Assembly: GCA_020832135.1 (NCBI GenBank)
Contig: JAFIFG010000015.1
Coordinates: 1 to 64,000, forward strand
Source of the DNA: Clostridiaceae bacterium
GTDB taxonomy: Bacteria > Bacillota > Clostridia > Peptostreptococcales > Natronincolaceae
Reading direction: 5' to 3'
Length of the DNA stretch: 64,000 nt
The notes beneath the pieces were generated by a model. It saw only the letters and a program-made list of their open reading frames with translations, was not told where the DNA came from and made no database searches. Position 1 is the stretch's first letter, and every line of letters begins with the position of its first letter. The position numbers and the translations under genes were made by a program. Positions 21,897 to 60,069 of the stretch are shown here, piece after piece.

Positions 21897-22798
21897 TATT
21901 CTCCACCTCCAGTAACAGCCCAATCTCCACCTATATCACGCCCTAAGTCACATGTATAAATCCACTGAATGACATCTCCATTCTCTAATTTATATCTACT
22001 AGAACCATAATTAGGAAACCAGCCATTTACTTTATACATCCAACCACTTAATTCCCCTCCATCAAATTCGTAGATATTGTTAATTCCCTCCACATAATTG
22101 CTATTATAAATAGGTGTCATCGAAAACTCCATATGTATCCTATTGCTTTGCATCTCCCTAAGCAATACATCAAATACAGACTCGCCTTCGTAAAATATGA
22201 CTTCTTGCTTTGGATAAATGATCCCATCCTCTGGCAATACTTCTAACTTATCTTTATTAAATATCTCCATATTGTTTAGTATTGTTTTGCAGGTTACTGA
22301 AAGGGTTGCAGTCAACTGGTTTTCTTTGTTTATTTCTACATCTTGCCACTCTACAGGATTTGGCTTTCCTTCTGGAACTGGATCTGTCAAATATTTATCT
22401 TTTTTATCTAGGTTTTCCTTATCCTCCTCTATTATTTCTTCTTTAATCTTCTTTTTCTCTTTTTCTACTTCTATTTTATTTTTTTCTACAGCATTGCTTT
22501 TTTCTTCTGTTTTATTTTTTATCTCTATTTCTTTTGTTTCCTTTATCTCCTCCATTTCCCCTAAATTATCTACTTCTTTTATTTCTTCTGCTATGTGTAC
22601 ATCTTTATTGTCCTTATTACTAACAGCATTATCTTTACTTTCAGCTTTCACCTTATCTTCTTCAACAACGCTCTCTTCTAACCCATATCCCATCTGTTCT
22701 TGACTTAAGGGAACTACTTCATGGTTTCCACCTATGAAAAAAGAAACTACAATAAGACAAAGCATTATTCCACCTAAAATAATCTTCTTCTTTTTCAC
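21896..22798 (-). CDS. Membrane-tethered DUF4430 (transcobalamin beta-domain-like) protein
   Basis: A 300-aa exported protein. It has an N-terminal Lys-rich signal or anchor helix (about 5-25), a long Glu/Lys-rich spacer (about 45-145), then one DUF4430 domain (about 165-295). The domain carries the hallmark SGWMYKVNGWFPNYGSSRY and ends DLGRDIGGDW. I see no clear lipobox Cys, so the helix may stay as an uncleaved anchor. The start is GTG. It is directly coupled to the T component of the ECF transporter, which suggests it hands a ligand from the wall to the transporter. The ligand is inferred, not shown. Confidence 0.85.
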   Translation of the reverse strand: MKKKKIILGGIMLCLIVVSFFIGGNHEVVPLSQEQMGYGLEESVVEEDKVKAESKDNAVSNKDNKDVHIAEEIKEVDNLGEMEEIKETKEIEIKNKTEEKSNAVEKNKIEVEKEKKKIKEEIIEEDKENLDKKDKYLTDPVPEGKPNPVEWQDVEINKENQLTATLSVTCKTILNNMEIFNKDKLEVLPEDGIIYPKQEVIFYEGESVFDVLLREMQSNRIHMEFSMTPIYNSNYVEGINNIYEFDGGELSGWMYKVNGWFPNYGSSRYKLENGDVIQWIYTCDLGRDIGGDWAVTGGGE

Positions 22799-22817
22799 TT
22801 TTGCACCACCTTAGTTA

Positions 22818-22848
22818 CTAAGAAGGGTAGATAACTACCCTCCTTAAT
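22818..22848 (-). other. Intergenic hairpin between the DUF4430 genes
   Basis: AAGGAGGGTAG and CTACCCTTCTT pair with a short loop on the minus strand. No T-run follows, so partial termination or mRNA processing between the 1284-aa S-layer gene and the ECF genes is more likely than full termination. Confidence 0.4.
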
Positions 22849-22854
22849 CTATTT

Positions 22855-26709: not shown

Positions 26710-26777
26710 TGTTTTCTCCCCCTTTTATCCATATAGTCTACGAACTATTTGATTTTCTCTTTATAGTTTATTTTTAG

Positions 26778-26815
26778 AAAAAGAATAGGAATGAAATTCC
26801 ATTCCTATTCTTTTT
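26778..26815 (-). terminator. Terminator of the giant S-layer gene
   Basis: A perfect 16-bp stem (AAAAAGAATAGGAATG / CATTCCTATTCTTTTT) with a 6-nt loop and T-run lies directly after the giant gene stop. It separates that transcript from the 1284-aa gene, which therefore probably has its own promoter or relies on read-through. Confidence 0.85.
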
Positions 26816-26821
26816 TTAGTT

Positions 26822-29800
26822 TTATTGTGCAATTTTTGTAATTACCATTACGGCTTCAGCCCTTGTGGCATAACTTTGTGGTCTGAAGGTATTATCTGGG
26901 TAGCCAGTAATAATGTTATTTTCAATCGCTGTATCAACGGCTGACTTTGCCCAATCAGAAATATCCTTTTCATCTATAAATGTATTTTCTTCTACACTAC
27001 CTTCTAATTTTATTGCCTTTATAACCATTACAGCCATTTGTTCTCTAGTAATGTAGTCATTTGCACCAAAGGCATTTTCATCATACCCCTTTAATATACC
27101 TTGTTCATAGGCTGTTGCAATGTAATCTTTCGCCCAGTGTTCCTCTGTATCAGCAAATACTTTTCCAAATCCTACTTCTAAATCAAGTGCTCTCACTAAT
27201 ACTGTAGCAAATTCTCCTCTTGTTATATTGTTTTCAGGCTTAAAGGTATCATCTAAATAGCCATTAATTGCTTCCATCTCTATTAATTTTATGATACTCT
27301 CCTCTGCCCAATGACCTGCTATATCTATTAGCTTTGCTTCTATTACTTCTTTTGTTTTCTTTTCTGTAGCCAATATAGCAAATTTCGTAAAATGATCTAT
27401 TTCTCCACTTACATTACCATTAGATTTGTTTACCTTCACTTTATCTAGCTCTAACCATTCATTTGTTTTTTCATTTAGCCAGAAAAGGGATACATCATAT
27501 TTATCAAAATCTACTTCACTTTCATCAAAAGGCAACATAACAGTTATGTTTTTATCAAAATTCCCAGTCTTATTCTTGGTAATTTCAAACACTTCTCCTA
27601 CAATTTTCCTGTTAGAATCCATTGGTAGTCTTGATACATTATTAACCCTTTCAATTATTACTTCAAAATCACGATCCATTGTATTTCTTGGGAATTTAAG
27701 TGTAGCCCCTTCTTGTTTTATGGTTGTAGATTCTGAAGACTTTACAGTTTCTGTGGATGTGGCGGTTTTGTTTCTTCTACGGCTACTACTACTTCCACTA
27801 CTGCTTCCTCCACCACTGGATATGCTATCGGTTTCTACCCTCACACTATTAGATAATGCTGATTCAAATCCTTCTTCATCAATAGCCGTTGCTTTGAAGG
27901 TGTATTCCATACTTGCATTTAAGCCTTTTATAATGTATTTGCCATCTTTTTCTGTTATATCCTTATCTTTTATTCTTTCATTGTTTTTATAGAATTCAAA
28001 GCTTACTTCTTCAATAGATGAATCCACTTCAAAGACTACACTGCTACTATTAGTGGATACAACTTTAAGCTTTGGTACTTCAATGGCTTCACCTATTAAA
28101 ACTGTGCTTAAATCAGTAGTGAAGGTTGCATTGCCATCTTTGTCTACTGTAGCTTCTCTATATTCCCATTTTTCTTCCTCTTTCGCTTTATGAAAACCAG
28201 AGATTTTTTTATTGTTTAGCTCTTTAGGAATGGGTAATGTTAAGGTTACTTCTTTTTTACCAAGTCCCGGTACTATAATCTCTAATGCTGTTACAGGTCT
28301 AGCTAATCCTACATTAGCAGCCTTTACTTTAAGTACCAAAGCCTCATCTTCCCCTAAGGTTAATGATGGTAATTGAATTTTTATTTCCTTCTCTAGTTCC
28401 TTCACTTTAATTGGTACAATTACTGGCTTAGTAACTCTTTTGCCATTTTCTTGAATAACTCCTTTTAATTCCTCTACTCTTGAAAGATCTATTTTTCCAT
28501 CTTCATCAGCTTCCCGCAGCTCTATCTCCAGTAGTTTTTCTGGGTCTTCTGATTCCTTCGGTTCCTCTGTCTCCTCTGGATCTATTTTTTCAACCAAACC
28601 TGTAATCGCTGCCTCAATAGCTGCTACCTTTGTATCTACTTCTTCTTGGGTTGCTTCTTCTTTAGCTACAACTTCAGTTGCCGCTTTTAAAGCTATTTGA
28701 AGTACTTCCCATGTTGCTTCTGTATATTCAACTTCTTTTAATTCTTCAGCTACTGCTATTTTATCTTGTAAGTCTGCCTTGTCTACTGGTGGTGCTGGTA
28801 TCTCTAATTGAATTTCACATAACTCGTACCAAGTAGATTGACTTCTCACCATGTCCGATAAAGCTACTGCCACTTGTTTTGTTGCCATACCAACAGAACC
28901 ACTTTCACCATGCTGCCAATTGAAGGAGCCATCCTCATTTTGGTAACTTAACAATGCATCTATTGGTGTTTTACCATTCTTAGACCACTGGCCATTAACA
29001 TCTGAAATATCTTCTCCTACGGCTATAAGTCCTTGAATTACACAAGCTATGCTATTGGAATTTTCAGTATCCCACATGCCTGTCCCACCGAAACCACCGC
29101 TTTCAACCTGCATTGTTTTTAAGTAGGATTTTGCTTTTGTGATACTTTCTTCAACTATTTCTCCACTTCCCTTGGATAATGGGATCAAAGCCCATCCCGT
29201 GTTATCTATTTGAGAAAATGGACCAAAACTACCATTGAGATTTTGTTGTTTAATTAATGCCTCAATAGCCTTTCCTCTGTTCTTTTCTTCCCACTCACCT
29301 ATGTCTATGCCTATTTCTGCGGCTACATCTAAAGCTACGATAGACCAGATATGCTTACCTATGGTGCCAAAGCTTCCATCTTCTTTTTGATGTGATGATA
29401 ACTCGACAAAGAGATTTCTATTGGATTCAAATGCTTTTGCTGGATTTTCACCTACACTTAACAAACTAAAAATATGATGAATATGGTCATTTCCAGAAGT
29501 CATAGCATCAAAACCTGGGTCTTGGGTTTTCCATAAATAATCTTCCCATGGATCTTCTTTGAAGTCTACTCCAGCTCCCCATAATGCTATAAAAGCTTCC
29601 CAACCTACCATTGGTGTTTGTGGTTGGTTCTCTTTGTAATAAGCTACTACTTTATTTAATGCTTCACCTAGTTTTTCTGTATTCGATTCCTCTAGCTCTT
29701 CTTCTACTAGAATCTCAGCATAAGGTCTTACTATATTTTCTTTTTTAGCAGAAATAATATACCTTCCTGAGTCTTCGAATGATAATACTACATTCCCCTT

Positions 29801-32800
29801 CTCATCTGTTTTTAATAATTCACCATTTACTTTATATGGTTTATCATTTACTAGTATAGTTGCATTTGCTATAGGATTTATTTCTTCTATCCCTTCTAGT
29901 GCAGCTCCACTAGATCCCATTAAGTTTAATTCTAGATTTTCCCTAACACTAATAGTACTTTTATCTTTATCGAAAAATGAATACTGATATTCCATAAAAT
30001 TCTCAACATGAAACACTACAATGGTTTCTTGAGGCTTAATTGTAAACTCATTTATTCCCTTGTCAGCATATTGATTTTCAACATAATACATCCATCCATT
30101 CCAGTAATCATATTCTTCCGACATGCCTTTAATTCCATCAATCATACTTATATAACTACCTGAACCGTGCTCAAACCCATTTTCTGAATCAGTACAATCT
30201 ATCCCTACACTTTCTAAAGCTTTTATAATGGCATGTATTGGCTTAACTTCCTCAAACTCTGTACTGATATTGTAGTAACTCAAATCTAAATTATTTATTT
30301 TTAATTCAGTTAAAGGAACTATCGTTCTATCATGAGACTCCACTCTTACTTTACTTGTGAATGATCCTATATTTATTTCTACAGTATCCTTTATTTGGTT
30401 TCTACTTTTTAATCTAGCTGTGATCGAAATATCTCCTGACTTTATAGGTATGATTTCTCCTGTTTGAAAGTCTATAGAAATACTGTCCTCATCATTTACT
30501 TCCCATACAATTCCTTCTATTAAATTTTCTACTAACTCACCTCTATACAGAAGATCTATACTTATTTTTTCTCCAAGGCTTACTGTTTTCTTATCTAATT
30601 GAACTTCTAATTCTTTTTCATAATCTATAGATGCTTCTTTGTAAGTGACTTCTATTGTTGTATCCTCTACTAGATTAAATATATAAATATATGCTAAATG
30701 ATGAAATTTCAATTCATGGCTTTTCTCTTCACCATTCACCTTAAGACTCTCAATTTCTTTTCCAAAAGGTGGGTTTATTACTACAGAAACTTCGCTATTT
30801 ATGCCTACTTCCCCTGCCTCTGGATTACTTGTCAATCCTTCCCCTTCTAGGGTCAAGTTTTTGTTTCCTAATGATTTATAAACAAAGGTTATTTCATTTT
30901 CTTTTTCCTCTAACTTTAAGTTTATTTCTTCTGGCTTCTCATAGCCACCTATTTGTTTTGGATGAAAGTTATAAGTATTACCCACTCTAAAATAATTTTG
31001 ACCTAACTCAGATGTATGATTATAGTCCCTATAGGTATTTGTGCTTGTTTTGTAGTCCTGCAAATACTTCTGATTACCTCCTACAATCTCTTCAATTGTG
31101 CTCCATCCCTCTTCTCTTAGTGCTAATTTATATAGTTCTCTACCAACTGCTTCTATAGAGGGATGTATTTTTTCTTCACTCTCATTGACATAATTGATTT
31201 TCACTGCAGTTGGATTGACAATGCCCTGTGTATTTTCATCTGTTGCATTTCCATTATTATACACTCTAGTATATCTTTGTACTTCATCTTCTTGCTTCGT
31301 ATTACTTCTCCAAAGCACTCTGCCGTTGCTAGGGAATTCCGTTACTGATTCTGGAATAACTAGTTCATCTAATGCATTAAATGTAAAGGTATTTGCCCCT
31401 ATTTTTTCAAGTCCCTCTGGCAGTACAACACTTTCTAGATAATTATCTCTAAAAGCAGAGTCCCCAATAGATTTAACTTTTTGTGGAACCACTATAGAAG
31501 TTAAATTATTTCTTTCAAATGCACCATCACCAATTTCAACTAAGTTGGCTGAAAATGTTAATGCTTCTATTTCATTTCCCCAGAATCCTCTTTCCTTTAT
31601 TTTTGTAACACTATTAGGAATAACTAGATTTTCTATTAAATTTCCTTGAAATGCCCAAGGACCTATAATATCTAATCCTTCTGGCAATTCTACAGTTTTT
31701 ATTTGTGTATCTATTTTCCCACCGAAACTTGAATAATGAAATGCCTTTTCTCCTATTTTTCTTACAGCTACCCCATTAATTTCTTTAGGTATCACTAAGT
31801 TTTCTGGAGGACGATTTCCTTTATATCCCTTTATAGTTCCCGTCTCTTCATCAAATTCAAAAACAATTTCTTTTTCACCATCTTCTTTCGAGGTATCCTC
31901 TTCCAATTTTGGAGGGCCCTCTCCCATATCTTTAAAAATTCTTATGGTATCTCCATCTTCTAATTGCAGTTTAGCATCATTGTATGTTTCGATATCATCA
32001 TTTAAAATAAAACTCCAAAAATGCCAATCATCTGTCATTAGATAATCCATTTTCAAATAATCTTTGTCAAATCCAATATTGTTTTTATTCAATGCCACCA
32101 TGATAGCTGCAAAAATAGAATCCTTTTTTAATACTGTTACTGATTCAGAAAAATCTATAACATTTTCATTGTTTTTACCTTCAACAGTCACAGTCACAAA
32201 ATCATTTTGATAAGAATCAAAGGATGGTAAAAGGTCATGAGATGATTTTGCATAATAAAAGAAAATATAGTCACCTGCTTTTATTTCTTCTTTTCTAGCC
32301 ACATCGTTTGGTACCATAAAATTAACTTTATACATCCAACCACTTTGAGCATGGTAGTTTCCATCGTCTTCGCCGTTTTTTTGCCCTTCGATACTTTCTA
32401 TCCATCCATTATCTTTTATATCTAAAGACAATCCAGTTGCTTTCAAGGCATCTTCTGCCGTTACTTTATCACCTTCATAAATTATAGTGATTTGTTGAGG
32501 AGAATATAAAATTTCATGATATATCCCTACAACTGCAATATTTACATCAATTTCAGCTCCTTCTACCCCAGGTGTTCTTTTTTGCAAACCTTCTATAGCT
32601 TCATGAATAGCTACAACCTTTGCATCCACTTCCTCTTGGATAGTTTCTGACAATGCCAGTGCTGCTACTAGGGCTGCATAGCTTGCTTCTGTATAATCTT
32701 CCTCAGCTTTTTCAGCTGCCGCTGCTTTTGCTGCCTCTAATGCTGTTTTATTAATTGTTCCTTCTATTTCTTTTAATGCTTCAATTGCATTTGTTAAGTT

Positions 32801-35335
32801 CGTTAAAGCTTCATCTACTTCTGCTAGAGTTGCTTCCTCATCAGCTAATACTGTTTGTGCCGCTGTAAGTGCAGTTTTAAGTGCTTCCCATGTTACTTCT
32901 GTGTAATCTGCTTCGGCTAGAGTGTTTACTTCTTCTATTTTATCTTGTAAATCTGACTTATCTGTTGGTGGTACTGGTATCTCTATGACTACATCTGTCA
33001 TATCATAAAGACTGTTTTTACCATTTACGAATCTATCATAAGCTATTAATGCATAAGTCCCCTGATCCGTTGCCATGCCATCTACTACACCTGCTTCTGC
33101 ACCTCCATCAGTATTGCCACCTGGCTTCACATGCATAAAACCTCCTTCTGGAACTGCAAAACTCATCAAGTTATCCACTGCTGAAATACCATTTTTAATG
33201 AATCTTTCATCCTTATGAGGATCTATTCCCAATCCTGTTAAAGCTACAATTACTTGAGCACAACTTTCACTATTGATACTTCCCCAGCTACTATATCCTC
33301 CATCATCTCTTTGATTTTCAGAAAGCCAAGTTATAGCTCTGTCCACTGCAGCTTTTACTTGTGGCTTACTTTCATAATAGGGTGTGAGACCTTGTATAGC
33401 CATAGCTGTTATATCTGGATCTGGAATATTTCCAGTTAATGCCCAGCCTCCACCAGCTATTTCTCTATCTAGAATATATGCTATACACTTTTCTCTAGTG
33501 GTTTGATTTTCTACATTTTCATCTACTGGTATTTCATATTGATGGCTATCAAGGGCTATTAAAGCAAATATTGGACCATTGATTCCCTGTCTTATCACAT
33601 AATCAAAATCAGCTAAAGCACCTCTAATATCATATCCTGATACATTGGTAATATCTTTGCCGATGGATGTTAAACCTAAAATTAACCTTGAATGCTCTGT
33701 TCCTTTATTTCTATCTAATTTTCCAATGGGGTTTATTTCCATTAATTTTTTTACTTCTTCTTCAACGTTCTCATAATAAAGTGCATAATACCCTTCCTCG
33801 ACTTGATAGCCTCCCCTTGCTAAGCAAAGTATCGACCACTCTCCTGCTCCAGTTCCAAAGGTAGGGTTATCTACTGTTTCATAGATATAATCAAGATTTT
33901 TATTTAATTGTTCTCTTGGTGTTAAGGATATCTCAGCTTGTTTTTCTACTAGCTTTTCTATAGATTCCTTAATAGCCGCTATCGCCAAATCCACTTCTTC
34001 CTGCATTGCATTTTCATTTTCAGCTACAGCTTCGGCTTCTGAAATGACTTGCAATAATTCATTCCAAGTTTCTTCTGTATATACATTTTCTTCCAAAAGC
34101 TTTGCTTCTGCTATTTTTGATTCTAAAGCTTTTTTATCTATCTCTGGCCTATTATTTCCACTTAATGCTTCCTCCAAGTTTTTCTTTGCTGTATCTATTT
34201 CAGCTTGAGAAACATCTAACCTTTGCAATATCTCGTAACTATGATTATATGCTGTCAGTACATCTTGGTTTGATAACAATTCTTCTTTTTTTCTACTACT
34301 ATTGATTACGGCAATGGCTCTTGTAAGCTCATCTTTATTTACTTTAGTAAAGAATTGATTAGCAGAACCCCCACCCACTGAGCCGCCAATATCATTTCCA
34401 AGGGCTAAAGTAAATTGAACACGCATTACATCCTCATCTAAAAGGTACTGGTCAGAAAACCCTACATTGGGAAATGTATTGTTAACGGCATACATCCATC
34501 CTGACATAGAATTAAAAGCAAATTCACCTAGTTCACCTTCCCAATACTGTGTTTCATTGTAATTTCCATTAAGCTTTTCTTTTAAAACTTCTGGTATGGT
34601 TGGTTTTGTTTTGTATACTTTTTCACTTCCGTCTAATACCTGCGATAGATAGAATCCACTTTTAACAGTTCCTGTGTTTTCATATTCATAGCCAGCTGCT
34701 TCAATGATTTCTACTAATTCTTCAGCTGCATTTCTTCCCATATGAAGATCCACAATGACTGGCTCAATCAGGTAGCCCAATCCAACTGTAAAAGCCTCTA
34801 AACTAAAAACAAATTCTCCAATGACTTCTCCGTCATTAGCTACTTCTCTTTCAATAGTAAAAGTTTTTCGGTGCTTTTCACCGCCATAATTAACTTCAAT
34901 TACTATTTCATTTTCTCCAAAATTTAAATTTGCTGTGTAGCTTATTTTTTCTGAATCTTCCCAAGTGACTCCTACAATTTGATTATTGTTAGTAACCTTG
35001 ATATCTTTAGTAGAAATCTTTTGTCCATCACTATCTTTAGCCCACAAATCAAAAGTAATTTTATCGACTTTTGTAGTCATACTTTGCAGGTTAGTTTCTA
35101 TTGATGGAACATCAGTTGCCACTTCTAATGCTTCTCTTCCTACACTATCTTGTTGAAAAAACTCTATCTCATTATTCTCATATACAGTTGCTGTTACTGT
35201 TTCTTGATTTAATACCCCCGTCAAATCTAGCTTAAATTCTTCATCCGCCCATGCGAACATAGGGCTAAATAAGGACAAAATCATTATTAAGCTAAGACAT
35301 AATGCTATATTTTTAGTCCAATACTTATTTGACAT
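26822..35335 (-). CDS. Giant S-layer protein with transcobalamin-like toroids and DUF4430 domains
   Basis: About 2837 aa, secreted. Order: signal peptide (1-32); DUF4430 (about 180-325); FIVAR-type helical repeats (about 340-470); toroid 1 (about 475-795); FIVAR (about 805-930); DUF4430 (about 945-1060, SGWMYKVNFMVPN) and a related unit (about 1070-1170); BspA-like leucine-rich repeats (about 1190-1330); a MucBP-like part; DUF4430 (about 1680-1790); toroid 2 (about 1890-2140); FIVAR; a fibronectin-III-like segment; three C-terminal SLH repeats (about 2665-2837). I chose the ATG at 35335, 8 nt after GGAGG; the TTG at 35341 is too close. It lies downstream of a B12 riboswitch and the DUF2292 gene. 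The toroid/DUF4430 units suggest corrinoid capture on the cell surface. Confidence 0.85.
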   Translation of the reverse strand: MSNKYWTKNIALCLSLIMILSLFSPMFAWADEEFKLDLTGVLNQETVTATVYENNEIEFFQQDSVGREALEVATDVPSIETNLQSMTTKVDKITFDLWAKDSDGQKISTKDIKVTNNNQIVGVTWEDSEKISYTANLNFGENEIVIEVNYGGEKHRKTFTIEREVANDGEVIGEFVFSLEAFTVGLGYLIEPVIVDLHMGRNAAEELVEIIEAAGYEYENTGTVKSGFYLSQVLDGSEKVYKTKPTIPEVLKEKLNGNYNETQYWEGELGEFAFNSMSGWMYAVNNTFPNVGFSDQYLLDEDVMRVQFTLALGNDIGGSVGGGSANQFFTKVNKDELTRAIAVINSSRKKEELLSNQDVLTAYNHSYEILQRLDVSQAEIDTAKKNLEEALSGNNRPEIDKKALESKIAEAKLLEENVYTEETWNELLQVISEAEAVAENENAMQEEVDLAIAAIKESIEKLVEKQAEISLTPREQLNKNLDYIYETVDNPTFGTGAGEWSILCLARGGYQVEEGYYALYYENVEEEVKKLMEINPIGKLDRNKGTEHSRLILGLTSIGKDITNVSGYDIRGALADFDYVIRQGINGPIFALIALDSHQYEIPVDENVENQTTREKCIAYILDREIAGGGWALTGNIPDPDITAMAIQGLTPYYESKPQVKAAVDRAITWLSENQRDDGGYSSWGSINSESCAQVIVALTGLGIDPHKDERFIKNGISAVDNLMSFAVPEGGFMHVKPGGNTDGGAEAGVVDGMATDQGTYALIAYDRFVNGKNSLYDMTDVVIEIPVPPTDKSDLQDKIEEVNTLAEADYTEVTWEALKTALTAAQTVLADEEATLAEVDEALTNLTNAIEALKEIEGTINKTALEAAKAAAAEKAEEDYTEASYAALVAALALSETIQEEVDAKVVAIHEAIEGLQKRTPGVEGAEIDVNIAVVGIYHEILYSPQQITIIYEGDKVTAEDALKATGLSLDIKDNGWIESIEGQKNGEDDGNYHAQSGWMYKVNFMVPNDVARKEEIKAGDYIFFYYAKSSHDLLPSFDSYQNDFVTVTVEGKNNENVIDFSESVTVLKKDSIFAAIMVALNKNNIGFDKDYLKMDYLMTDDWHFWSFILNDDIETYNDAKLQLEDGDTIRIFKDMGEGPPKLEEDTSKEDGEKEIVFEFDEETGTIKGYKGNRPPENLVIPKEINGVAVRKIGEKAFHYSSFGGKIDTQIKTVELPEGLDIIGPWAFQGNLIENLVIPNSVTKIKERGFWGNEIEALTFSANLVEIGDGAFERNNLTSIVVPQKVKSIGDSAFRDNYLESVVLPEGLEKIGANTFTFNALDELVIPESVTEFPSNGRVLWRSNTKQEDEVQRYTRVYNNGNATDENTQGIVNPTAVKINYVNESEEKIHPSIEAVGRELYKLALREEGWSTIEEIVGGNQKYLQDYKTSTNTYRDYNHTSELGQNYFRVGNTYNFHPKQIGGYEKPEEINLKLEEKENEITFVYKSLGNKNLTLEGEGLTSNPEAGEVGINSEVSVVINPPFGKEIESLKVNGEEKSHELKFHHLAYIYIFNLVEDTTIEVTYKEASIDYEKELEVQLDKKTVSLGEKISIDLLYRGELVENLIEGIVWEVNDEDSISIDFQTGEIIPIKSGDISITARLKSRNQIKDTVEINIGSFTSKVRVESHDRTIVPLTELKINNLDLSYYNISTEFEEVKPIHAIIKALESVGIDCTDSENGFEHGSGSYISMIDGIKGMSEEYDYWNGWMYYVENQYADKGINEFTIKPQETIVVFHVENFMEYQYSFFDKDKSTISVRENLELNLMGSSGAALEGIEEINPIANATILVNDKPYKVNGELLKTDEKGNVVLSFEDSGRYIISAKKENIVRPYAEILVEEELEESNTEKLGEALNKVVAYYKENQPQTPMVGWEAFIALWGAGVDFKEDPWEDYLWKTQDPGFDAMTSGNDHIHHIFSLLSVGENPAKAFESNRNLFVELSSHQKEDGSFGTIGKHIWSIVALDVAAEIGIDIGEWEEKNRGKAIEALIKQQNLNGSFGPFSQIDNTGWALIPLSKGSGEIVEESITKAKSYLKTMQVESGGFGGTGMWDTENSNSIACVIQGLIAVGEDISDVNGQWSKNGKTPIDALLSYQNEDGSFNWQHGESGSVGMATKQVAVALSDMVRSQSTWYELCEIQLEIPAPPVDKADLQDKIAVAEELKEVEYTEATWEVLQIALKAATEVVAKEEATQEEVDTKVAAIEAAITGLVEKIDPEETEEPKESEDPEKLLEIELREADEDGKIDLSRVEELKGVIQENGKRVTKPVIVPIKVKELEKEIKIQLPSLTLGEDEALVLKVKAANVGLARPVTALEIIVPGLGKKEVTLTLPIPKELNNKKISGFHKAKEEEKWEYREATVDKDGNATFTTDLSTVLIGEAIEVPKLKVVSTNSSSVVFEVDSSIEEVSFEFYKNNERIKDKDITEKDGKYIIKGLNASMEYTFKATAIDEEGFESALSNSVRVETDSISSGGGSSSGSSSSRRRNKTATSTETVKSSESTTIKQEGATLKFPRNTMDRDFEVIIERVNNVSRLPMDSNRKIVGEVFEITKNKTGNFDKNITVMLPFDESEVDFDKYDVSLFWLNEKTNEWLELDKVKVNKSNGNVSGEIDHFTKFAILATEKKTKEVIEAKLIDIAGHWAEESIIKLIEMEAINGYLDDTFKPENNITRGEFATVLVRALDLEVGFGKVFADTEEHWAKDYIATAYEQGILKGYDENAFGANDYITREQMAVMVIKAIKLEGSVEENTFIDEKDISDWAKSAVDTAIENNIITGYPDNTFRPQSYATRAEAVMVITKIAQ
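32981..33900 (-). repeat. Toroid-coding duplication, copy 2
   Basis: Encodes toroid 1 of the giant protein; partner of the copy at about 25517-26425. Only scattered substitutions separate the two over roughly 300 residues, far closer than the other toroids in these proteins. Confidence 0.8.
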
Positions 35336-35374
35336 CCTCAAATCCTCCTTTGTTAAATATTAAATATTTTACCA

Positions 35375-35690: not shown

Positions 35691-35782
35691 CTTAAAGTCA
35701 TTTTTATCGCATTATTATTAATGCCTAAAAATGACCAGTATTTCTCCTTCCCATCCCCGTGAGAAACATAGAACATTTTCAT

Positions 35783-35925
35783 GGCAGGTCTCCTGGCTTT
35801 GCTTCATTGCAATCCTATCTCCTTCCCATCTTCATCAACAGTGGTTATGATAGTTTGCTCTGCATTACAGTGGCGGGACCGCTTCGGATTTTCACCGACT
35901 TCCCTCTTAGCTTTTAAAAGCACCA
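35783..35925 (-). promoter_or_regulatory. Cobalamin riboswitch 3
   Basis: Contains the minus-strand B12 box AGCCAGGAGACCTGCC and the core GGTGAAAATCC...GTCCCGCCACTGTAA. It is diverged from riboswitches 1 and 2, so it is not part of their recent duplication. It heads the DUF2292 gene and the giant transcobalamin-like S-layer gene. Confidence 0.93.
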
Positions 35926-35955
35926 TAAAAATTTTATTATGTAGTTTACATCAAT

Positions 35956-37050: not shown

Positions 37051-37144
37051 ATTAAAGACTACATTGCAAGCTACTTTGCGAAAGCTCTTCATCAAGTGGA
37101 TAAAAAGTTCCAAGTCTAATGAACAGTTAAAATTATCTTTTTTT

Positions 37145-37205
37145 ATAAATAAAAGCTCCAAAATACTTCTTGCTTTAGCAAAGCATGTGCCTTCGTGGCT
37201 TTATT
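37145..37205 (-). terminator. AYGAA-hairpin element, copy d, after the Znu-type operon
   Basis: Minus-strand AAAGCC-ACGAA-GGC begins just past the binding-protein stop. Outer AAAGC/GCTTT arms enclose a second hairpin (TGCTT...AAGCA) and lead into a T-rich stretch. Probably the operon's terminator; the 3' arm is less perfect than in the other copies. Confidence 0.55.
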
Positions 37206-37214
37206 ATTAAGATC

Positions 37215-38039
37215 TTATAACCCCAGTTTCTTTACATTATCCTTAAATAACTCCATTAAATCTTTATGTTCAGGTCCTGGAAAATTTCTAAGCACTACTA
37301 ATTCAGTATCACATAATTCTTTTATTACTTCACCTTGAGGATTATGGTAATTATCAATGATTAAGTCAGGGTTAAGAGCAGCCAGTTCACCTATCTTTGC
37401 TGGACTTAATTCATCTGCACCAAATATTTCAAGAACATTGTAGCCAATAGATTCTGCAAAAGCAGCCAAATGTGTATGTACAAGGATATTAATTTCAGAA
37501 ACCTTTTTTTCATTAGCATTGGCAAGAATTTCCTCCATTATTTTACCAAACTCTGCCTGCCATGCTTCTTGCTTGTCTCTCGTTCCAATCTTTTCTGCTA
37601 TCAATGCCGTCTGTTCTGCTAAATTGTCATAGGTGTTGGTAGTTCTTACTTGGATGATTTTCTCCTCATCTATATCATTAGATTCTATAATTTTTCTCAT
37701 AAAGGGTTCATACCCTCCCATAATAATCCAATCTGCCTCCTGCATGATTTGTATATCACTTGGTCTGAAGTCATATTCTGGAGGATGTCTTAGCTCTACA
37801 GGTGCAATAACTGCTACATTTTCAGCACCTGCTGCTTCAGCCATTAATGCAGTCCAGCTAGTGGAGGCTACAATGGTAATTCCTTCTGCTTCACTAGCTA
37901 TAGCTTCTTCAGTTACTTCAGTTAGTGTTTCTACTGTCTCATCTGTAGTGTTTCCTTGCATACATGCTGTTGTTACTAGGGTAATACTTAAAATCAACAT
38001 CATAAACAAAGCTATTTTTTTCTTTTTTGTTATCTTCAT
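37215..38039 (-). CDS. Metal ABC transporter substrate-binding lipoprotein (ZnuA/TroA-like cluster)
   Basis: A 274-aa extracellular binding protein with a signal peptide and probable lipidated Cys in LVTTACMQG (residue about 26). It has a TroA-like or helical-backbone fold with VASTSWTALMAEAAGAENV, VELRHPPEYDFRPSD (a His in the usual first metal-ligand region), and HTHLAAFAESIGY. It is the last gene of the fmdE-methyltransferase-Znu operon. Zn or Mn would be the default ligand for the family. The partners (FmdE, methyltransferase) hint at a different metal or a metal complex. Confidence 0.8.
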   Translation of the reverse strand: MKITKKKKIALFMMLILSITLVTTACMQGNTTDETVETLTEVTEEAIASEAEGITIVASTSWTALMAEAAGAENVAVIAPVELRHPPEYDFRPSDIQIMQEADWIIMGGYEPFMRKIIESNDIDEEKIIQVRTTNTYDNLAEQTALIAEKIGTRDKQEAWQAEFGKIMEEILANANEKKVSEINILVHTHLAAFAESIGYNVLEIFGADELSPAKIGELAALNPDLIIDNYHNPQGEVIKELCDTELVVLRNFPGPEHKDLMELFKDNVKKLGL

Positions 38040-38067
38040 TATTCAATACTCCCCTTCATTTATAAAA

Positions 38068-38868
38068 TTATTTTTTAAAAATAATGCTTACCAAAAGAAT
38101 TGAAACACCTGTTAGGGTAATGGTTGCCCCTGTTGGCAAATCAAATACCATGGATAAAAGTAACCCGCCAGTTGTTGTAATCATTCCAAAGAAAGATGTT
38201 AATATTAAAAGTTGAATAAGATTTTTGGCAAATCTACTGGCAGCCATAGCAGATAAAAGGATGAGGGCATCAATTAATAATGCACCAACTATTTTCATTG
38301 CAACACCAATAGCTAATCCTGTAAGAAACAAAAGTCCATTTCGAATACGTTTTGTAGGAACACCAAGCCACTCCGCCTGCTCCATATCATAAAATATCAG
38401 TTGAAGCTCCCTATAAAAAATAAAATAGGTTGCCACAATCACGGTTCCTAATATAGCAATAAACCACAGATCCATTCTTGTAAGGGTTAGAATACTACCA
38501 GTAAAAAGCCCAAAAACATCCAATGCTGGGACACCAGCTTTATAAAATAATAAAAATGCAAGAGCTATGGTTCCCGTCATAAAAAAGGCACCCGTTAATC
38601 CTGTGTCTAATTTTAGCTTGTCTGTTAATGGACCAAATAACAAGGAGCCTATAGCAATTGCCGCCATAGCAGCCGTCAATGGATTGGCTCCAAGGGCTAA
38701 ACCAATAGCACCTCCTAATAGGCCAAAATGCATTAATGCAAAGCGAATCGTTGTTAAGTTAAAAGTCGTTATTACAATCCCTAATAAAGACATGGTGCCA
38801 CCTGCAAGAAGAGAGGCAATAAATGCCCTTTGAAAAATGGGTACCTGTAAAAAATCAATCACTGTCAT
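38068..38868 (-). CDS. Metal ABC transporter permease, ZnuB/ABC-3 family
   Basis: A 266-aa membrane protein with about eight transmembrane helices, starting FLQVPIFQRAFIASLLAGG as in ZnuB-type permeases. The ATPase-coupling region includes WLGVPTKRIRNGLLFLTG. Its start overlaps the ATPase stop by 4 bp, showing it belongs to one transcript with it. Confidence 0.9.
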   Translation of the reverse strand: MTVIDFLQVPIFQRAFIASLLAGGTMSLLGIVITTFNLTTIRFALMHFGLLGGAIGLALGANPLTAAMAAIAIGSLLFGPLTDKLKLDTGLTGAFFMTGTIALAFLLFYKAGVPALDVFGLFTGSILTLTRMDLWFIAILGTVIVATYFIFYRELQLIFYDMEQAEWLGVPTKRIRNGLLFLTGLAIGVAMKIVGALLIDALILLSAMAASRFAKNLIQLLILTSFFGMITTTGGLLLSMVFDLPTGATITLTGVSILLVSIIFKK

Positions 38869-39566
38869 TGTACCATCTCCACATTCTTTAATATTTCTCC
38901 ATTCTTGAGATAGACCAGACGATCACTAATTGACTCAGCATGATGTTGATCATGACTAATCATTAATATAGAAAGATTGTATTGCTGACGGATGATATCA
39001 ATAGTTCTATCTAGTTTAGCTTGAGAGTCAATGTCCAGATGGGTAGTGGGTTCATCTAGAAGTAGGACTTGTGGTTTTCTTACTATCGCCCTAGCAATAT
39101 TGAGACGTTGACATTGTCCCCCTGATAACTCACGACAATCTTGGTGGATCATATGACTTAAATCAACGATTTCTAAAGTTTCTTCAACGATCTCCTTATC
39201 TTCTTTTGAGGGACGTTTTAAATAGGAAAAGGAGGTACCCCATCGTCCCAGTAAAACTGCATCAAATACACTTATGGGAAATTTACCCATGCTTTGTTTT
39301 TGAGGCACATATCCAATTTGTGATCGCAGCCATTGTTTATCTTTTCCTTTTGTAACATCACGTTCAAGAATTTTTATTTTCCCATCCATTATAGGTAATA
39401 GTTGCAGAATTCCTTTGAATAAAGTGGTCTTGCCAGCCCCATTTTCTCCTAATATAGACACAAATTCTCCTAGCTTAATGTTAAAATTAATATCCTTTAA
39501 AACAATGTGATGTCCATAACCCATTTTTAGTTTTGACAATTCAATAGCATAATGAGAACTTGACAT
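38865..39566 (-). CDS. Metal ABC transporter ATPase, ZnuC type
   Basis: A 233-aa ATPase with Walker A GENGAGKTT, signature ELSGGQCQRLNIARAI, Walker B VLLLDEPTTHLD and switch His in MISHDQHH. It lies 3 bp after the methyltransferase stop. No C-terminal regulatory domain is present. Confidence 0.92.
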   Translation of the reverse strand: MSSSHYAIELSKLKMGYGHHIVLKDINFNIKLGEFVSILGENGAGKTTLFKGILQLLPIMDGKIKILERDVTKGKDKQWLRSQIGYVPQKQSMGKFPISVFDAVLLGRWGTSFSYLKRPSKEDKEIVEETLEIVDLSHMIHQDCRELSGGQCQRLNIARAIVRKPQVLLLDEPTTHLDIDSQAKLDRTIDIIRQQYNLSILMISHDQHHAESISDRLVYLKNGEILKNVEMVQ

Positions 39567-39569
39567 AAG

Positions 39570-40199
39570 CTATAGTTCCTCTTTGCAAGCAATGATGCGA
39601 TATTTTTCTTCTACATCAATTGCCTCTTTTATATTAAAACCTACTTGAGTTAATTTTTCACATACTGTTCCAGCATCATCTAACATGTCTTTACTTAAAA
39701 CAGGATTAGGAGATTGGCTATGAATTCTATTAATATGCTCTCTACCAGAATAATGGTTAATTATAAACAACCCTTCTGGTTTTAAGATCCTATAGATTTC
39801 CTTTATGGCCTTATTAGGATCTTGAAAATGAGGATATGCATTATGACATAATACTCTATCTACAGAGTTACTCTTTAGAGGAATATGATGCACATCTCCA
39901 TGTATGATTTCTAATAGATTAGACTTTATTTTATCAGCATATTTCTCCTGAAGAATAGCCAGCATTTTAGAGGACAAATCTAGTGCAATCCATTTTCTCG
40001 GTTCCGCCTCAAATCCACTTTCAAGCAGTATTCCTGTACCTGCACCTATATCTACTACAATTTTACCTTTTATATCCGATGCCTCCATTAATTCATCTAG
40101 GGGCATTGTATGATCCCCTTCAATAATTTTTTCCCATCGGTTAGATAATTCATCAAATATATTTTCTCTAGTTTTATCAAATACAGCTGTACTACTCAT
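39570..40199 (-). CDS. Class I SAM-dependent methyltransferase of the Znu-type cluster
   Basis: A 209-aa methyltransferase with motif I VVDIGAGTGILLE and motif II IALDLSSKML, plus IPLKSNSVDRVLCHNAYPH of the Methyltransf_11 fold. A good AGGAGG precedes the start. It lies between the FmdE-like gene and the ATPase. It is the third class I methyltransferase tied to an ABC importer in this window, though the three are not close in sequence. Confidence 0.85.
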   Translation of the reverse strand: MSSTAVFDKTRENIFDELSNRWEKIIEGDHTMPLDELMEASDIKGKIVVDIGAGTGILLESGFEAEPRKWIALDLSSKMLAILQEKYADKIKSNLLEIIHGDVHHIPLKSNSVDRVLCHNAYPHFQDPNKAIKEIYRILKPEGLFIINHYSGREHINRIHSQSPNPVLSKDMLDDAGTVCEKLTQVGFNIKEAIDVEEKYRIIACKEEL

Positions 40200-40229
40200 T
40201 TCCTATACCTCCTTTAAAGAATTTTTATA

Positions 40230-40290
40230 AAAACAAAAGCCACAAAAACACTTCCTGCTTCAGCAAAGAATGTGCCTTCATGGCTTTATT
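40230..40290 (-). terminator. AYGAA-hairpin element, copy e, between fmdE and the methyltransferase
   Basis: Minus-strand AAAGCCATGAAGGCAC pairs over 16 positions (with G-U) with GTGTTTTTGTGGCTTT, then runs into T-rich sequence. This is a strong attenuator or terminator within the operon. The 5' arm also folds locally as GCC-ATGAA-GGC. Confidence 0.65.
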
Positions 40291-40312
40291 AAGCAAATAT
40301 CAATAATTAGTG

Positions 40313-40837
40313 TTACAATTCCCTAGAATAATCTTGAAAACAATCTAAACAAACCCTCTTCCCCTCCATCAAACGAATCTTATGTTCAGGGGCTCCTTCT
40401 TCACATCTTTCACACACAATCGTAGTAAAAATCCTCGCTTTTTCTGGTAATTGAAAATTAGGTGTTTTAAATTCAAAAATCTCTTCTATTGGTGCCTCTA
40501 GTAAGTAGGCTTGTCTCTCTCCTCTGTTCATTTCCTTGTCAGAGGGTTTCAATACAATTCTCATGCTTTCCCCAGTAGTACGGTTAAAGAAACTAAAGGC
40601 TTGTTTTCCGGTGCCACGATAAATAAGGTTTCCCTTTCCAAAGCTACAACCCAACAATAATTGAATCGCATCTACTCCACAAGCATCATTTTCCGTCACG
40701 CATACTATATCTTCATCCTTTGAAAATCCAACCTTTAGTTTTTCTTTGGCCGCCTCACAGGCTTTATAGCCAATAGCTAAGCCAGGGCACTCATGTCCAT
40801 GAAACTCCACTGCTTTTTCCCATAATTGTTTATCCAT
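40313..40837 (-). CDS. FmdE-family protein with C-terminal zinc ribbon
   Basis: A 174-aa cytoplasmic protein. The FmdE domain begins EFHGHECPGLAIGYKA and contains CVTENDACGVDAIQ. A C-terminal zinc finger has the spacing CERC...CLDC. FmdE was named after formylmethanofuran dehydrogenase, but in bacteria the domain is often linked to molybdate/tungstate or other metal genes and its reaction is unknown. It has its own promoter and a structured leader. Two decayed copies of its 5' end exist in the window (near 3.0 and 41.07 kb). Confidence 0.88.
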   Translation of the reverse strand: MDKQLWEKAVEFHGHECPGLAIGYKACEAAKEKLKVGFSKDEDIVCVTENDACGVDAIQLLLGCSFGKGNLIYRGTGKQAFSFFNRTTGESMRIVLKPSDKEMNRGERQAYLLEAPIEEIFEFKTPNFQLPEKARIFTTIVCERCEEGAPEHKIRLMEGKRVCLDCFQDYSREL

Positions 40838-40861
40838 TTGTCATCCTCCTCAAAAAATTAA

Positions 40862-40938
40862 TAAAGTCATGGAATACAGTTATAGTCTTTAGAACAACCT
40901 TCATGGTTGAAATATAGCTAGTTCGTCTTCATGACTTA
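40862..40938 (-). promoter_or_regulatory. AYGAA-hairpin element, copy f, in the fmdE leader
   Basis: Two hairpins, GTC-ATGAA-GAC and CAACC-ATGAA-GGTTG, lie between outer arms AAGTCATG and CATGACTT, and a T-rich stretch and the fmdE ribosome binding site follow at once. The outer helix would sit just before the ribosome site, so control of termination or translation is possible. Confidence 0.55.
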
Positions 40939-40987
40939 GGATTTATTATAATTTTTATAAAATTTATATCTTTTACTTTATAATATT

Positions 40988-41016
40988 ATAGTAGTATATT
41001 TTTCCAACATTGTCAA
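40988..41016 (-). promoter_or_regulatory. Promoter of the fmdE operon
   Basis: Minus-strand TTGACA (41011-41016), a 17-nt spacer and TACTAT (40988-40993), with TATAAT overlapping 3 nt further on. It gives a leader of about 140 nt containing hairpin element f. Confidence 0.7.
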
Positions 41017-42598: not shown

Positions 42599-42638
42599 AA
42601 AAAAACCCATAGTAGTCTATTCTACCATGGGTTTTTTT
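42599..42638 (-). terminator. Terminator of the activase operon
   Basis: Minus-strand AAACCCATGGTAG and CTACTATGGGTTT pair around a short loop and end in seven T residues, immediately after the activase gene stop. Confidence 0.85.
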
Positions 42639-43621
42639 TATGCTAATTTCTCTACTCCACTTTTCAAAGCATTATTCCACTTGCCACATTTATCTCCCCA
42701 ACGGGCCATTACTGTTCCGTCTCTCAGGATCTCTATAACCTCGCATAGGTTAGAACAGTCTTTACACTCCATGCCCTTTACATTATATCCTGAATTAATG
42801 ATATCAAAGCCTTTAAAGTTAGTTTGAGGATTTTTAACTGCATGCTCCTTTGCCAATAGACAGCAGCCTATAGCCCCCATTACTTCATGATGAGGTGGTA
42901 CAAATACTTCTTGACCTAAGGCTTCTTCAAAGGATTTCATAATACCTGCATTAGCAGCTACACCACCTTGAAATACTACTGGTCCTAAGATCTCTTTACC
43001 TTTTGCTAAGTTGTTTAAAAAGTTTCTTACTAAGGCATCACATAACCCCTTAATGATATCCTCTTGGTTATGTCCTAGCTGTTGCTTGTGAATCATATCA
43101 GATTCTGCAAAAACAGCACATCTCCCAGCAATCCTTACAGCATTTTCAGATTTAAGAGCTAATTCACCAAAGTCTTGAATTGCTATATCCATACGGGCTG
43201 CTTGACGGTCTAAAAAAGAACCTGTTCCGGCAGCACATACAGTATTCATGGCAAAATCACTAATGATACCATCCCTTAATAGGATAATTTTAGAATCTTG
43301 TCCACCTATTTCTATAATGGTTTTAACTCCATCTACAAAATTCAGAGCTGCAATACCGTGGGCAGTAATTTCATTTTTTACTACGTCTCCACCTACGATC
43401 ATAGAAGCTAAATTTCTACCACTTCCTGTAGCACCTACTCCTTTTACTTTTATTTCTTCATTTACCTCTTTCTTTATTTCCTTCAAACCCCTTTGTATGG
43501 CTTCTATTGGCCTACCCTGGGTTTTTGTATATATTTTCCCTAATATTTCTTTATCATCATTCATAAGTACAATATTTGTACTTACGGAACCTACATCAAT
43601 ACCTAAGTAGCAATTCTGCAT
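42638..43621 (-). CDS. 2-hydroxyacyl-CoA dehydratase activase family ATPase (HgdC/BadF type)
   Basis: A 327-aa ASKHA-fold ATPase: phosphate-1 motif LGIDVGSVSTNIVLM, GGQDSKIILL, and the two family cysteines that hold a [4Fe-4S] cluster at the dimer interface (NTVCAAGTGSF and AGRCAVFAESD). Archetypal members inject an electron into the dehydratase. Here the partners are two related proteins upstream (26-bp overlap with the next), and no obvious dehydratase alpha/beta pair is present, so the client is unknown. The C-terminus has extra cysteines (CKDCSNLC). Confidence 0.9.
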   Translation of the reverse strand: MQNCYLGIDVGSVSTNIVLMNDDKEILGKIYTKTQGRPIEAIQRGLKEIKKEVNEEIKVKGVGATGSGRNLASMIVGGDVVKNEITAHGIAALNFVDGVKTIIEIGGQDSKIILLRDGIISDFAMNTVCAAGTGSFLDRQAARMDIAIQDFGELALKSENAVRIAGRCAVFAESDMIHKQQLGHNQEDIIKGLCDALVRNFLNNLAKGKEILGPVVFQGGVAANAGIMKSFEEALGQEVFVPPHHEVMGAIGCCLLAKEHAVKNPQTNFKGFDIINSGYNVKGMECKDCSNLCEVIEILRDGTVMARWGDKCGKWNNALKSGVEKLA

Positions 43622-44705
43622 TTTCTTGTTTCTCCTTTCTTCGTCTTAAAAGATCTATAAAGGCTTCAAGTCTAGTAGTATACCCCGCCTCTCCTGTCAT
43701 TTCATCAACGATTAAGCAAAGGTAAGGAATATTATAATCCTTTTCTACTGTAGGCATAATACTTTGTGCTACAATTTCTGGCATACAGGTTAAGGGATAA
43801 ATCTGAATAACTCCATCAAAACCTCTTTCGGCATATCGTATGGAATGACCTATGGTTTCCCTAGCATGTCCTCCGATCATGGTTTTCAAGTAGGGTTTTG
43901 CTGCTTTTCTCGTCTTTCCCTCCATTGTGAGTTTTAATGGACTTAAAAACAAGTGCTCCGTAAGCCAATGGCTTATTTTTAAAGACCTTTCAATTTCCAC
44001 ACCCATTTCCCCTAGTTTTTTATCTACATTTAAATTTACAAAAGGTTCTAAAATGGTATAGATCTCACCTACAATTCCAACCTTTAATACTTCTCTATTT
44101 GGGTCTTCTTCTATAGCGAGAATTTGTTTTCTTGTTTTCTCAATTAATTGTGATGTTTCCCTATAGCCCCGAACCTTTCTTACTTCCTTATGAAACTCAT
44201 CATAATATAGATCTACTTCCCCCATTTGCTTTTGTCTAGGTCTTTTATATAGGGCAGCATCATCCAAAGCATCTACTTGATATAAAATCCTCACCGCTCT
44301 AGATAGGGCATTAAGAATTTTAATAGGATTTTTCGTTTGTGCTAATTTAAAGATACTATTTATAAAGGTTTTGTAATCTCCTTGTGGTGGGTCAAATAAA
44401 ATTACTTCCATCTCATGGCCTAATTCCTTTAATATTTCTTTTTCTAATATAGAATAATATCCAAATCTGCAGGGACCACAGCTTCCAGAAAAGACAATGG
44501 TATCTGCCCCTTGTTTAATAGTTTCCATAAAGTTGCCTATATTTACCTTAAGGGGGAGACATATGGATTCTGGTGAATACTGTGTTCCAATACTTAATGT
44601 ATCATTACTACATTGGGGGGGTACCGCAATCTCCAATCCAAATTCCTCTAATAAAGTTTTTGTTGCAACATATTGATTACCCATGTGTGGAAAGGTTACC
44701 TTCAT
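43596..44705 (-). CDS. Activase-associated protein (DUF2229/dehydratase-like)
   Basis: A 369-aa protein beginning KVTFPHMGNQYVATKTLLEE, with cysteines in ESICLPLKVNIGNFM and SGSCGPCRFGYY, and a C-terminus with YPLTCMPEIVAQSIMPTVEK and DEMTGEAGYTTRLEAF. It belongs to the family found fused to or beside HgdC-type activases. It overlaps both neighbours, so three related genes form one unit. Confidence 0.82.
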   Translation of the reverse strand: MKVTFPHMGNQYVATKTLLEEFGLEIAVPPQCSNDTLSIGTQYSPESICLPLKVNIGNFMETIKQGADTIVFSGSCGPCRFGYYSILEKEILKELGHEMEVILFDPPQGDYKTFINSIFKLAQTKNPIKILNALSRAVRILYQVDALDDAALYKRPRQKQMGEVDLYYDEFHKEVRKVRGYRETSQLIEKTRKQILAIEEDPNREVLKVGIVGEIYTILEPFVNLNVDKKLGEMGVEIERSLKISHWLTEHLFLSPLKLTMEGKTRKAAKPYLKTMIGGHARETIGHSIRYAERGFDGVIQIYPLTCMPEIVAQSIMPTVEKDYNIPYLCLIVDEMTGEAGYTTRLEAFIDLLRRRKEKQENAELLLRY

Positions 44706-45657
44706 TTCTTTTCCTCCATTCCAGCATGTCTGTAAAGGCCTCCAACCTCGTATTTACTCCTGCTTCTCCAGTATGTTCATCTACTGTAATTAATAAAAAT
44801 GGTAATCTTCCTTTTTTCCGAGCCTTTCTCTCTATCAAATCCACTATAATGGAATCAATTCCACATCCAAAGGAAGACAGATATACCATACCATCAATAT
44901 TCTTTTCTTCTATTAAATACATAGCTGTCCCTAATAATTTTCTTCCATAACTCCAGAACATTTTCTTCTCAAGGGTTGATGCATGTTGATTTACAACCTT
45001 ATAATCCATCATTTCTGGAGTTACTATATTAATGCCATTTTCCTTTAATTTATTAATTAAACCCATGGAGCCATATTTATCGTATATATTGTAGGAGTGC
45101 CCCATAACAGCAATAGTTATATCTGATTGTTTTTTTTCTTTACTATTTAACTGACCATCTATGGGAAAACTACCCTCTTTAATTTCACTTTTATAGACTT
45201 CATACTCCTTCAATGCCTTTTCATAAGCTCGTTTTATCTTGATAGGATTTTTTGTTACATAACTCCCAAAATTATAAATAGTCTTTTTAAGACTATTTCT
45301 TGATTTGTTAAAATTAATTTCCGTATCAATAAGAGGTGGTAAGTCTTTAATAGAATGATTCACCATTTCTGGAAGTCCACAAAATTTAGGGCAGATATAT
45401 TCCCTTTTATATACACTCATCATTTTGGGTACAAATATGTAATCCACCTTATCCTTCAAGTCAAAAACATGTCCGTGAAATATCTTCACTGGTAGACAAG
45501 CTTCATCCACAGTATTTTTCACACCTGTATCTAATATTTGTTTATTTGTAGGATTAGATAGGACTACCTCAGCTCCTAATTCTTCATAAAAGGTTTTCCA
45601 TAAGGGATAATAGTCATAAAACCATAATCCTCTTGGTATACCTATCTTGACTGTCAT
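44677..45657 (-). CDS. Activase-associated protein, DUF2229 type
   Basis: A 326-aa protein starting KIGIPRGLWFYDYYPLWKTF, with DEACLPVKIFHGHV and the shared C-terminal LLITVDEHTGEAGVNTRLEAF. It is the first gene of the three-gene activase unit. The corresponding Cys-containing motifs are kept, suggesting iron-sulfur binding. The substrate is unknown. Confidence 0.82.
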   Translation of the reverse strand: MTVKIGIPRGLWFYDYYPLWKTFYEELGAEVVLSNPTNKQILDTGVKNTVDEACLPVKIFHGHVFDLKDKVDYIFVPKMMSVYKREYICPKFCGLPEMVNHSIKDLPPLIDTEINFNKSRNSLKKTIYNFGSYVTKNPIKIKRAYEKALKEYEVYKSEIKEGSFPIDGQLNSKEKKQSDITIAVMGHSYNIYDKYGSMGLINKLKENGINIVTPEMMDYKVVNQHASTLEKKMFWSYGRKLLGTAMYLIEEKNIDGMVYLSSFGCGIDSIIVDLIERKARKKGRLPFLLITVDEHTGEAGVNTRLEAFTDMLEWRKRNEGNLSTHG

Positions 45658-58751: not shown

Positions 58752-58754
58752 GTC

Positions 58755-59219: not shown

Positions 59220-59232
59220 ATTATCACCTACT

Positions 59233-60006: not shown

Positions 60007-60027
60007 CTTATTTATTATAGGAGTCTA

Positions 60028-60051: not shown

Positions 60052-60069
60052 TTTTCATCCTATGATCTA

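Follow-up and report, generated by a model that had tools for sequence, protein, structure and literature searches.

A cluster of five minus-strand genes between alr and rex raises the question of which metal is imported by an ABC-3 transporter that is encoded together with an FmdE protein and a methyltransferase (MT), and of what these two proteins do with the cargo. The cluster lies in a 64,000-nucleotide stretch of a Clostridiaceae bacterium (contig JAFIFG010000015.1 of assembly GCA_020832135.1, positions 1 to 64,000; hereafter the window). Sequence comparisons point to an Alkaliphilus-like member of the Bacillota as the host, the nearest relatives of its substrate-binding protein (SBP) being those of A. 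peptidifermentans, A. serpentinus and A. pronyensis. Pfam matches bear out the gene content described in an earlier sequence-only reading of this DNA, i.e., FmdE, MT and an ABC-3 transporter (ATPase, permease and SBP; Table 1), and the MT/ATPase and ATPase/permease gene pairs are tightly packed. Our preferred reading, which we regard as about evenly poised between right and wrong, is that the cluster is a nickel importer (with cobalt as second choice) for the free ion or a small chelate, equipped with two cytosolic handling proteins.

The substrate-binding protein and the conserved transporter unit

The predicted model of the SBP (pLDDT 82.5, built from nine sequences) matches PsaA with a Z score of 20.0 over 221 residues (root mean square deviation 2.4) and ZnuA with a Z score of about 20, which, together with the ABC-3 permease, places the cluster among the ABC-3 importers with a cluster A-I SBP. 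The known systems of this class, ZnuABC, PsaABC and MntABC, resemble it in SBP fold (Z 18–20 to PsaA, ZnuA and MntC), permease and ATPase. However, profile comparisons reveal that their canonical PHxYE ligand motif is replaced in the window SBP by HPPEY, and either HPPEY or HPTEY is present in all ten members of its family. Also invariant in these ten are H85, E88-Y89, Y110-E111 and an IIDNYHN string (DNYHN starting at D229), and H188 is kept in nine of them. Further differences from the known systems are the MT in the operon, the lack of any His-rich stretch or loop in the SBP sequence, and an NFPG motif that occurs, as NFPG or NFPA, in 10/10 SBPs of MT-linked ABC-3 sets versus 0/5 canonical SBPs. 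H85, H188 and H232 are the likely metal ligands, and Cys26 is a probable lipoprotein site, with the lipobox judged by eye. The fold also matches that of P. aeruginosa FpvC, an A-I SBP with structures in complex with Fe(II), Ni(II) and Mn(II); the matches include its Ni-bound form (6r44). FpvC is said to have a role in releasing metal from pyoverdine, and we know of no methyltransferase or FmdE that accompanies it.

The Pfam ZnuA match of the SBP is exactly at the cut-off of 29 bits and covers the N-terminal lobe only. The SBP fails the curated NCBIfam ZnuA model (PRK09545; 22.4 bits where 268 are required), and no NCBIfam metal-SBP model comes near its cut-off. Searching a wider collection of genome contigs with the SBP gave 11 loci, including two fragments (L032 and L033). 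The host genome encodes two further ABC-3 systems, of which one includes a His-rich ZnuA and the other is Mn-like, and the other SBP of the host (L020) has both the canonical His ligand motif and a His-rich loop. This separate His-rich ZnuA system already gives the cell a route for zinc. The window SBP has the ZnuA/PsaA fold but does not look like an ordinary zinc binder, and the label "Znu-type", given to the transporter by the sequence-only reading, misleads.

These features bear directly on the possibility that the cluster is simply a ZnuABC-like importer taking up zinc (or manganese) with high affinity, with FmdE and the MT as bystanders or zinc-deficiency paralogues. The ABC-3 permease and the ZnuA/PsaA fold, which are certain, would suit such an importer, as would the mostly zinc-filled sites of FmdE crystals and three FmdE loci (L108, L109 and L115) in the vicinity of canonical SBP-ABC-3 sets that include a Fur-like gene (assigned by eye). 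We nevertheless consider it rather unlikely, given the replaced ligand motif, the missing His-rich loop, the low NCBIfam score, the dedicated ZnuA and Mn-like systems elsewhere in the host, and the nickel/cobalt-type markers next to the MT subfamily (see below). Moreover, no Fur/Zur-like ORF adjoins the cluster, its flanks being Rex and Alr.

The SBP family was found in the host only among 291 genomes sampled from the class and in five of 20 genomes of the host's family; relatives occur in four of the 19 other genomes of that family, in spirochaetes, in Tannerella and in two phylum-sample genomes (L195 and L200). The order MT-ATPase-permease-SBP is complete in the latter two. In L197 the contig ends within it, and a spirochaete (L028) has a rearranged version together with DUF3842. 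The permease is 77–83% identical in four relatives. The conserved unit is MT-ATPase-permease-SBP, and FmdE is not its constant partner. Some related loci contain gene fusions: a DUF1893 (TM1506) domain is fused to the importer ATPase in L026 and L029 and precedes the ATPase in L031, and in L029 the permease and the SBP also form a single reading frame. DUF3842 itself is present in 133 of 299 phylum-sample genomes; several loci (L064–L083) have it in the neighbourhood of CbiM, hyp and cobalamin genes. It looks nickel/cobalt-related and is mentioned in no paper of the literature searched, which was mostly without subscription journals.

The methyltransferase as companion of metal importers

The window MT carries a signature consisting of PHF and H149-x3-R153-x3-N157-x2-H160. 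The spaced H-x3-R-x3-N-x2-H part is also present in 34 of 37 listed non-seed MT ORFs and in all six rows of the seed alignment (A6), in which H124, H149 and H160 are conserved histidines outside the S-adenosylmethionine (SAM) motifs. A profile built on these six MTs and run on the 299 genomes gave 49 genes of at least 120 bits, after which the scores drop. Seven were seeds or had already been seen, two (G472 and G430) were left out, and 40 were fetched; since the seeds had been picked near importers, linkage was tested on these 40 non-seed genes only. Of the 37 called ORFs, 30 have an importer or a nickel-type marker within 3 kb, as do all three recovered later; this makes 33/40, compared to none of the 20 next-best homologues (83–96 bits) treated in the same way (Fisher p 2e-10, for loci that are not independent). 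The importers are of four unrelated types (ABC-3, Opp/Nik, ECF S components and FecCD). An MT of the same subfamily accompanies Opp-type importers in L093 and L110 and lies near them in other loci. The MT, not FmdE, is the regular companion of importers. Labels of neighbouring genes, here and below, come from phmmer and BLAST comparisons with representatives, the main ones checked with Pfam; CbiB, Fur-like, LarE/LarB (Pfam hits generic ATPase/AIRC) and the XDH-like genes in L015/L017 were assigned informally, in part by eye.

Several neighbours of the MT have defined metal associations. HypA adjoins it in L178 (Pfam), HypA/HypB/NiFe genes are present in L202, and L192 has the order DUF3842-CooT-ECF-MT. 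NikR, an ECF S component and the MT follow each other in three related genomes (L181, L182 and L187), with NikR_C confirmed by Pfam in the two tested, L181 and L187; each locus would be a candidate for a nickel importer of the ECF type, with PF12822 rather than CbiM/NikM as its S component. Two loci outside the 33 have the MT fused to a CsoR/RcnR-type repressor domain (PF02583), identified by Pfam in L204 (6884–7906) and by phmmer in L205 (7241–8158). Taken together, the NikR, HypA, CooT or NiFe-hydrogenase neighbours and the repressor fusion point to nickel or cobalt. The best matches of the MT among solved structures are phosphoethanolamine N-methyltransferases, which show only a generic small-molecule MT fold. 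Membership of the DVU_1556 and CpaM methyltransferase families was rejected, the window MT scoring far below their cut-offs.

The subfamily could conceivably be a dedicated partner of nickel/cobalt import across ABC-3, Opp/Nik, FecCD and ECF systems that methylates the organic ligand of the metal and couples uptake to ligand methylation, a coupling of which the papers searched give no description, but we advance this tentatively. Nickel/cobalt importers seem to be associated with class I MTs beyond this one subfamily, because two Opp/Nik operons in the window and a LarC-LarB locus of the host carry MTs of other subfamilies (about 29–30% identity over 113–132 aligned residues, or no BLAST match). 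The combination of enzyme and importer in one operon is shared with NikABCDE/Opp-type nickel importers that come with metallophore enzymes, staphylopine Cnt being an example. The window cluster differs from these in importer fold, and it has an MT where no nicotianamine-synthase or opine dehydrogenase gene was seen. The text of a survey of Ni/Co transporters (PMC2667541) contains neither FmdE nor ZnuA. Nor did the literature searched, which lacked most subscription papers, describe the MT-importer link, this SBP subtype or an assignment of it to nickel; this is no proof of novelty.

FmdE, a proposed metal hand-over and alternative readings

The core residues H13, H15, C17 and C53 of FmdE align without gaps to the Zn/Ni ligands of 2GLZ (2glz_A), and a C-terminal C4 zinc finger (PF01258) follows the PF02663 core, placing the protein in the FmdE family. 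It shares core, HxHxC...C ligands, zinc finger and transporter adjacency with the structurally characterised members (2GLZ, 2GVI and 3D00). Unlike the archetype, the window gene is found with an ABC-3 importer and MT rather than in a formylmethanofuran dehydrogenase operon; no fwd/fmd catalytic subunit is adjacent, the neighbours being MT, ABC genes and Alr. A 2010 report already noted that genes for metal-ion transporters neighbour most PF02663 genes, and suggested that the family takes part in metal transport (PMC2954224), hence the FmdE-transporter link is not new.

FmdE is present in 108 of the 299 phylum genomes. From about 150 listed matches, 80 regions were fetched, yielding 75 FmdE ORFs in 73 loci (seven regions had no called FmdE ORF). 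A metal-type importer lies within 5 kb of 40/75 FmdE genes and a class I MT or TrmO-like gene near 20/75, rising to 18/24 and 13/24, respectively, for window-type FmdE (at least 55% identity). The importer type varies: FecCD/BtuCD in most cases, Opp/Nik in L093 and L094, CbiM in L102. FmdE is linked to metal importers elsewhere, and the proposal of the sequence-only reading that it handles a metal after import fits these neighbourhoods, but FmdE is not a constant partner of this SBP type. Nickel-type surroundings include the order LarE-LarB-LarC-MT-FmdE-SBP-FecCD-ATPase (L089), an adjoining NikR_C (L092) and the series DUF3842-FmdE-CooT-HypA-HypB-NiFe hydrogenase (L083; similar in L081 and L117, with L081 and L083 stemming from the DUF3842 sample). 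LarC is present in 99/108 FmdE genomes versus 68/191 others (odds ratio 19.9; 16.8 within MoaC-positive genomes), while the odds ratio for FmdE and MoaC is 7.1 (4.8 within LarC-positive genomes), for genomes that are not independent samples. The FmdE-LarC link is stronger than the MoaC link and partly independent of it.

From this gene content we infer the following route. The lipoprotein SBP would capture the metal in its ZnuA-like cleft, with H85, H188 and H232 as likely ligands, and the ABC-3 permease and ATPase would import it. The MT could then modify, or make, a small organic ligand carrying the metal in the cytosol; once methylated, a ligand of the histidine or amine type would chelate less strongly and release the metal. 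An FmdE dimer with an open HxHxC...C site may take up the metal and pass it to nickel enzymes or maturases, here probably a nickel-pincer racemase system. In the host genome, genes for LarC, LarB, a further MT and a NikA-like SBP are grouped, and a Ni malate racemase scores above its cut-off.

A number of observations weigh against nickel import by an FmdE-assisted system. Most systems with TroA/ZnuA-type SBPs and ABC-3 permeases serve Zn, Mn or Fe. Five MT loci have no importer link (L186, L189, L196, L198 and L203), in four loci of the same (Alkaliphilus) family DUF3842 flanks the ABC genes and both FmdE and MT are missing, and FmdE directly upstream of the unit and adjoining this SBP type is seen in the window only. 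Molybdenum-hydroxylase genes lie near the transporter in L015/L017 (XDH-like, by eye) and L026 (Pfam), and Mo-type genes near 3/75 FmdE. Direct LarC-FmdE linkage occurs in one sampled locus. Because a nickel/cobalt marker lies within 5 kb of only 6/75 FmdE genes, the case for nickel in FmdE depends on a small number of direct links together with co-occurrence. Finally, the 2010 report gives a Zn over Ni ratio of 2.6:1 at the crystal site of FmdE, for protein that had passed a nickel resin (PMC2954224).

Cobalt for the neighbouring B12 genes is another candidate cargo. The sequence-only reading had noted the adjacency to a B12 island, and three cobalamin riboswitches (9361–9539, 17964–18141 and 35766–35942) do lie in the window, none of them inside the cluster; two precede ABC operons carrying an MT, and FmdE is found beside CobQ-CbiB in L103 and CbiM in L102 and L111. 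A cobalt importer that feeds these genes is, however, improbable in our view, since the cluster has no cobalamin riboswitch of its own, rex separates it from the nearest one, and the markers NikR, LarBCE, HypA and CooT are those of nickel. That the cluster serves molybdenum or tungsten enzymes, as suggested by the naming of fmdE from Mo formylmethanofuran dehydrogenase operons (PMC2954224), by the Mo-type genes near FmdE and the SBP type and by the FmdE-MoaC association, is very unlikely: molybdate generally uses other SBP and permease families, the His/Cys site suits a cation, and the LarC association is stronger. A molybdenum-hydroxylase partnership, considered because of XDH-like genes near L015, L017 and L026/L027, was dropped as the main reading, with Mo markers near 3/75 FmdE and none listed beside the MT subfamily.

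Layout, neighbouring features and significance

Table 1. Genes and signals of the cluster (positions in the window).
Feature	Position	Strand	Support
FmdE (174 aa)	40313–40837	-	PF02663 120.8 bits (cut-off 22.9); PF01258 39.7 bits
Class I SAM-dependent methyltransferase (MT), importer-linked subfamily	39570–40199	-	Methyltransf_11 81.1 bits
ABC ATPase	38865–39566	-	ABC_tran 118 bits
ABC-3 permease	38068–38868	-	PF00950 140.9 bits, E 6.8e-41
Substrate-binding protein (SBP), divergent ZnuA/PsaA fold, probable lipoprotein	37215–38039	-	Pfam ZnuA 29.0 bits
Candidate promoter TTGACA-17-TACTAT	40988–41016	-	consensus match 10/12, weak
Terminator-like hairpin 3' of FmdE	40223–40291	-	-25.3 kcal/mol, z -3.8
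Second copy of hairpin element, 3' of SBP	37138–37206	-	80% identity over 69 nt; weak fold

A promoter shared by all five genes, as claimed by the sequence-only reading, is plausible but unproven: the candidate upstream of FmdE is the best-placed one, but the scan total is near chance (36 found, 31.4 expected) and a hairpin separates FmdE from the MT. The leader between candidate promoter and FmdE folds no better than shuffles (z -0.94). Riboswitch control of the cluster, by cobalamin or otherwise, was rejected, as an Rfam scan found no family above threshold; a sub-threshold miR-430 hit (E 0.56) is the hairpin itself and was taken as chance.

Hairpin elements had been described as separating the genes, which holds for two sites, behind the FmdE and SBP stops, and not for the other junctions. 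With up to 3 mismatches, the 38-base core of the element is found at only these sites in the 4.0 Mb genome. The FmdE-side copy is followed by a U-rich tail and would halt much of transcription, whereas the SBP-side copy folds no better than shuffles (z -0.04). Unique in the genome, the strong hairpin and its degenerate copy would fit a past insertion of the MT-ATPase-permease-SBP unit behind a pre-existing fmdE.

Elsewhere in the window, two Opp/Nik-type importer operons (3178–9179 and 11807–17735), each behind one of the first two riboswitches and with an MT (8349–9179 and 11807–12568), are candidate cobalt importers with the same enzyme-importer logic. The third riboswitch precedes a cluster (18635–35341) that encodes an ECF S component with an ABC ATPase, a DUF4430 protein and a pair of giant surface proteins, of which one gives weak cyclase-like hits; it is possibly a surface B12-binding system, with a putative likeness to transcobalamin. 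At 42638–45657, a protein of the acyl-CoA dehydratase activase type is encoded in a row with two DUF2229/HGD-D proteins, and 57747–64000 contains proline racemase and apparent D-proline reductase genes (by eye), with an ORF ending near 60343 that may stop at a selenocysteine codon. The LarC, MT, NikA-like SBP and LarB genes lie 34 kb beyond the window (C20:98534–103498; L165 and L166), and a gene for a LarAH6-type nickel malate racemase (L019, 2795–4051) is close to the Mn-like ABC-3 importer of the genome.

The motifs of the SBP would let annotators stop labelling such importers "zinc". FmdE has had structures since 2010 but no agreed role, and the neighbourhoods give both FmdE and the MT a testable setting in nickel/cobalt import. 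If the MT acts on a metal carrier, it would reveal the chelates with which nickel is taken up in anaerobes, and how the metal is released inside the cell.

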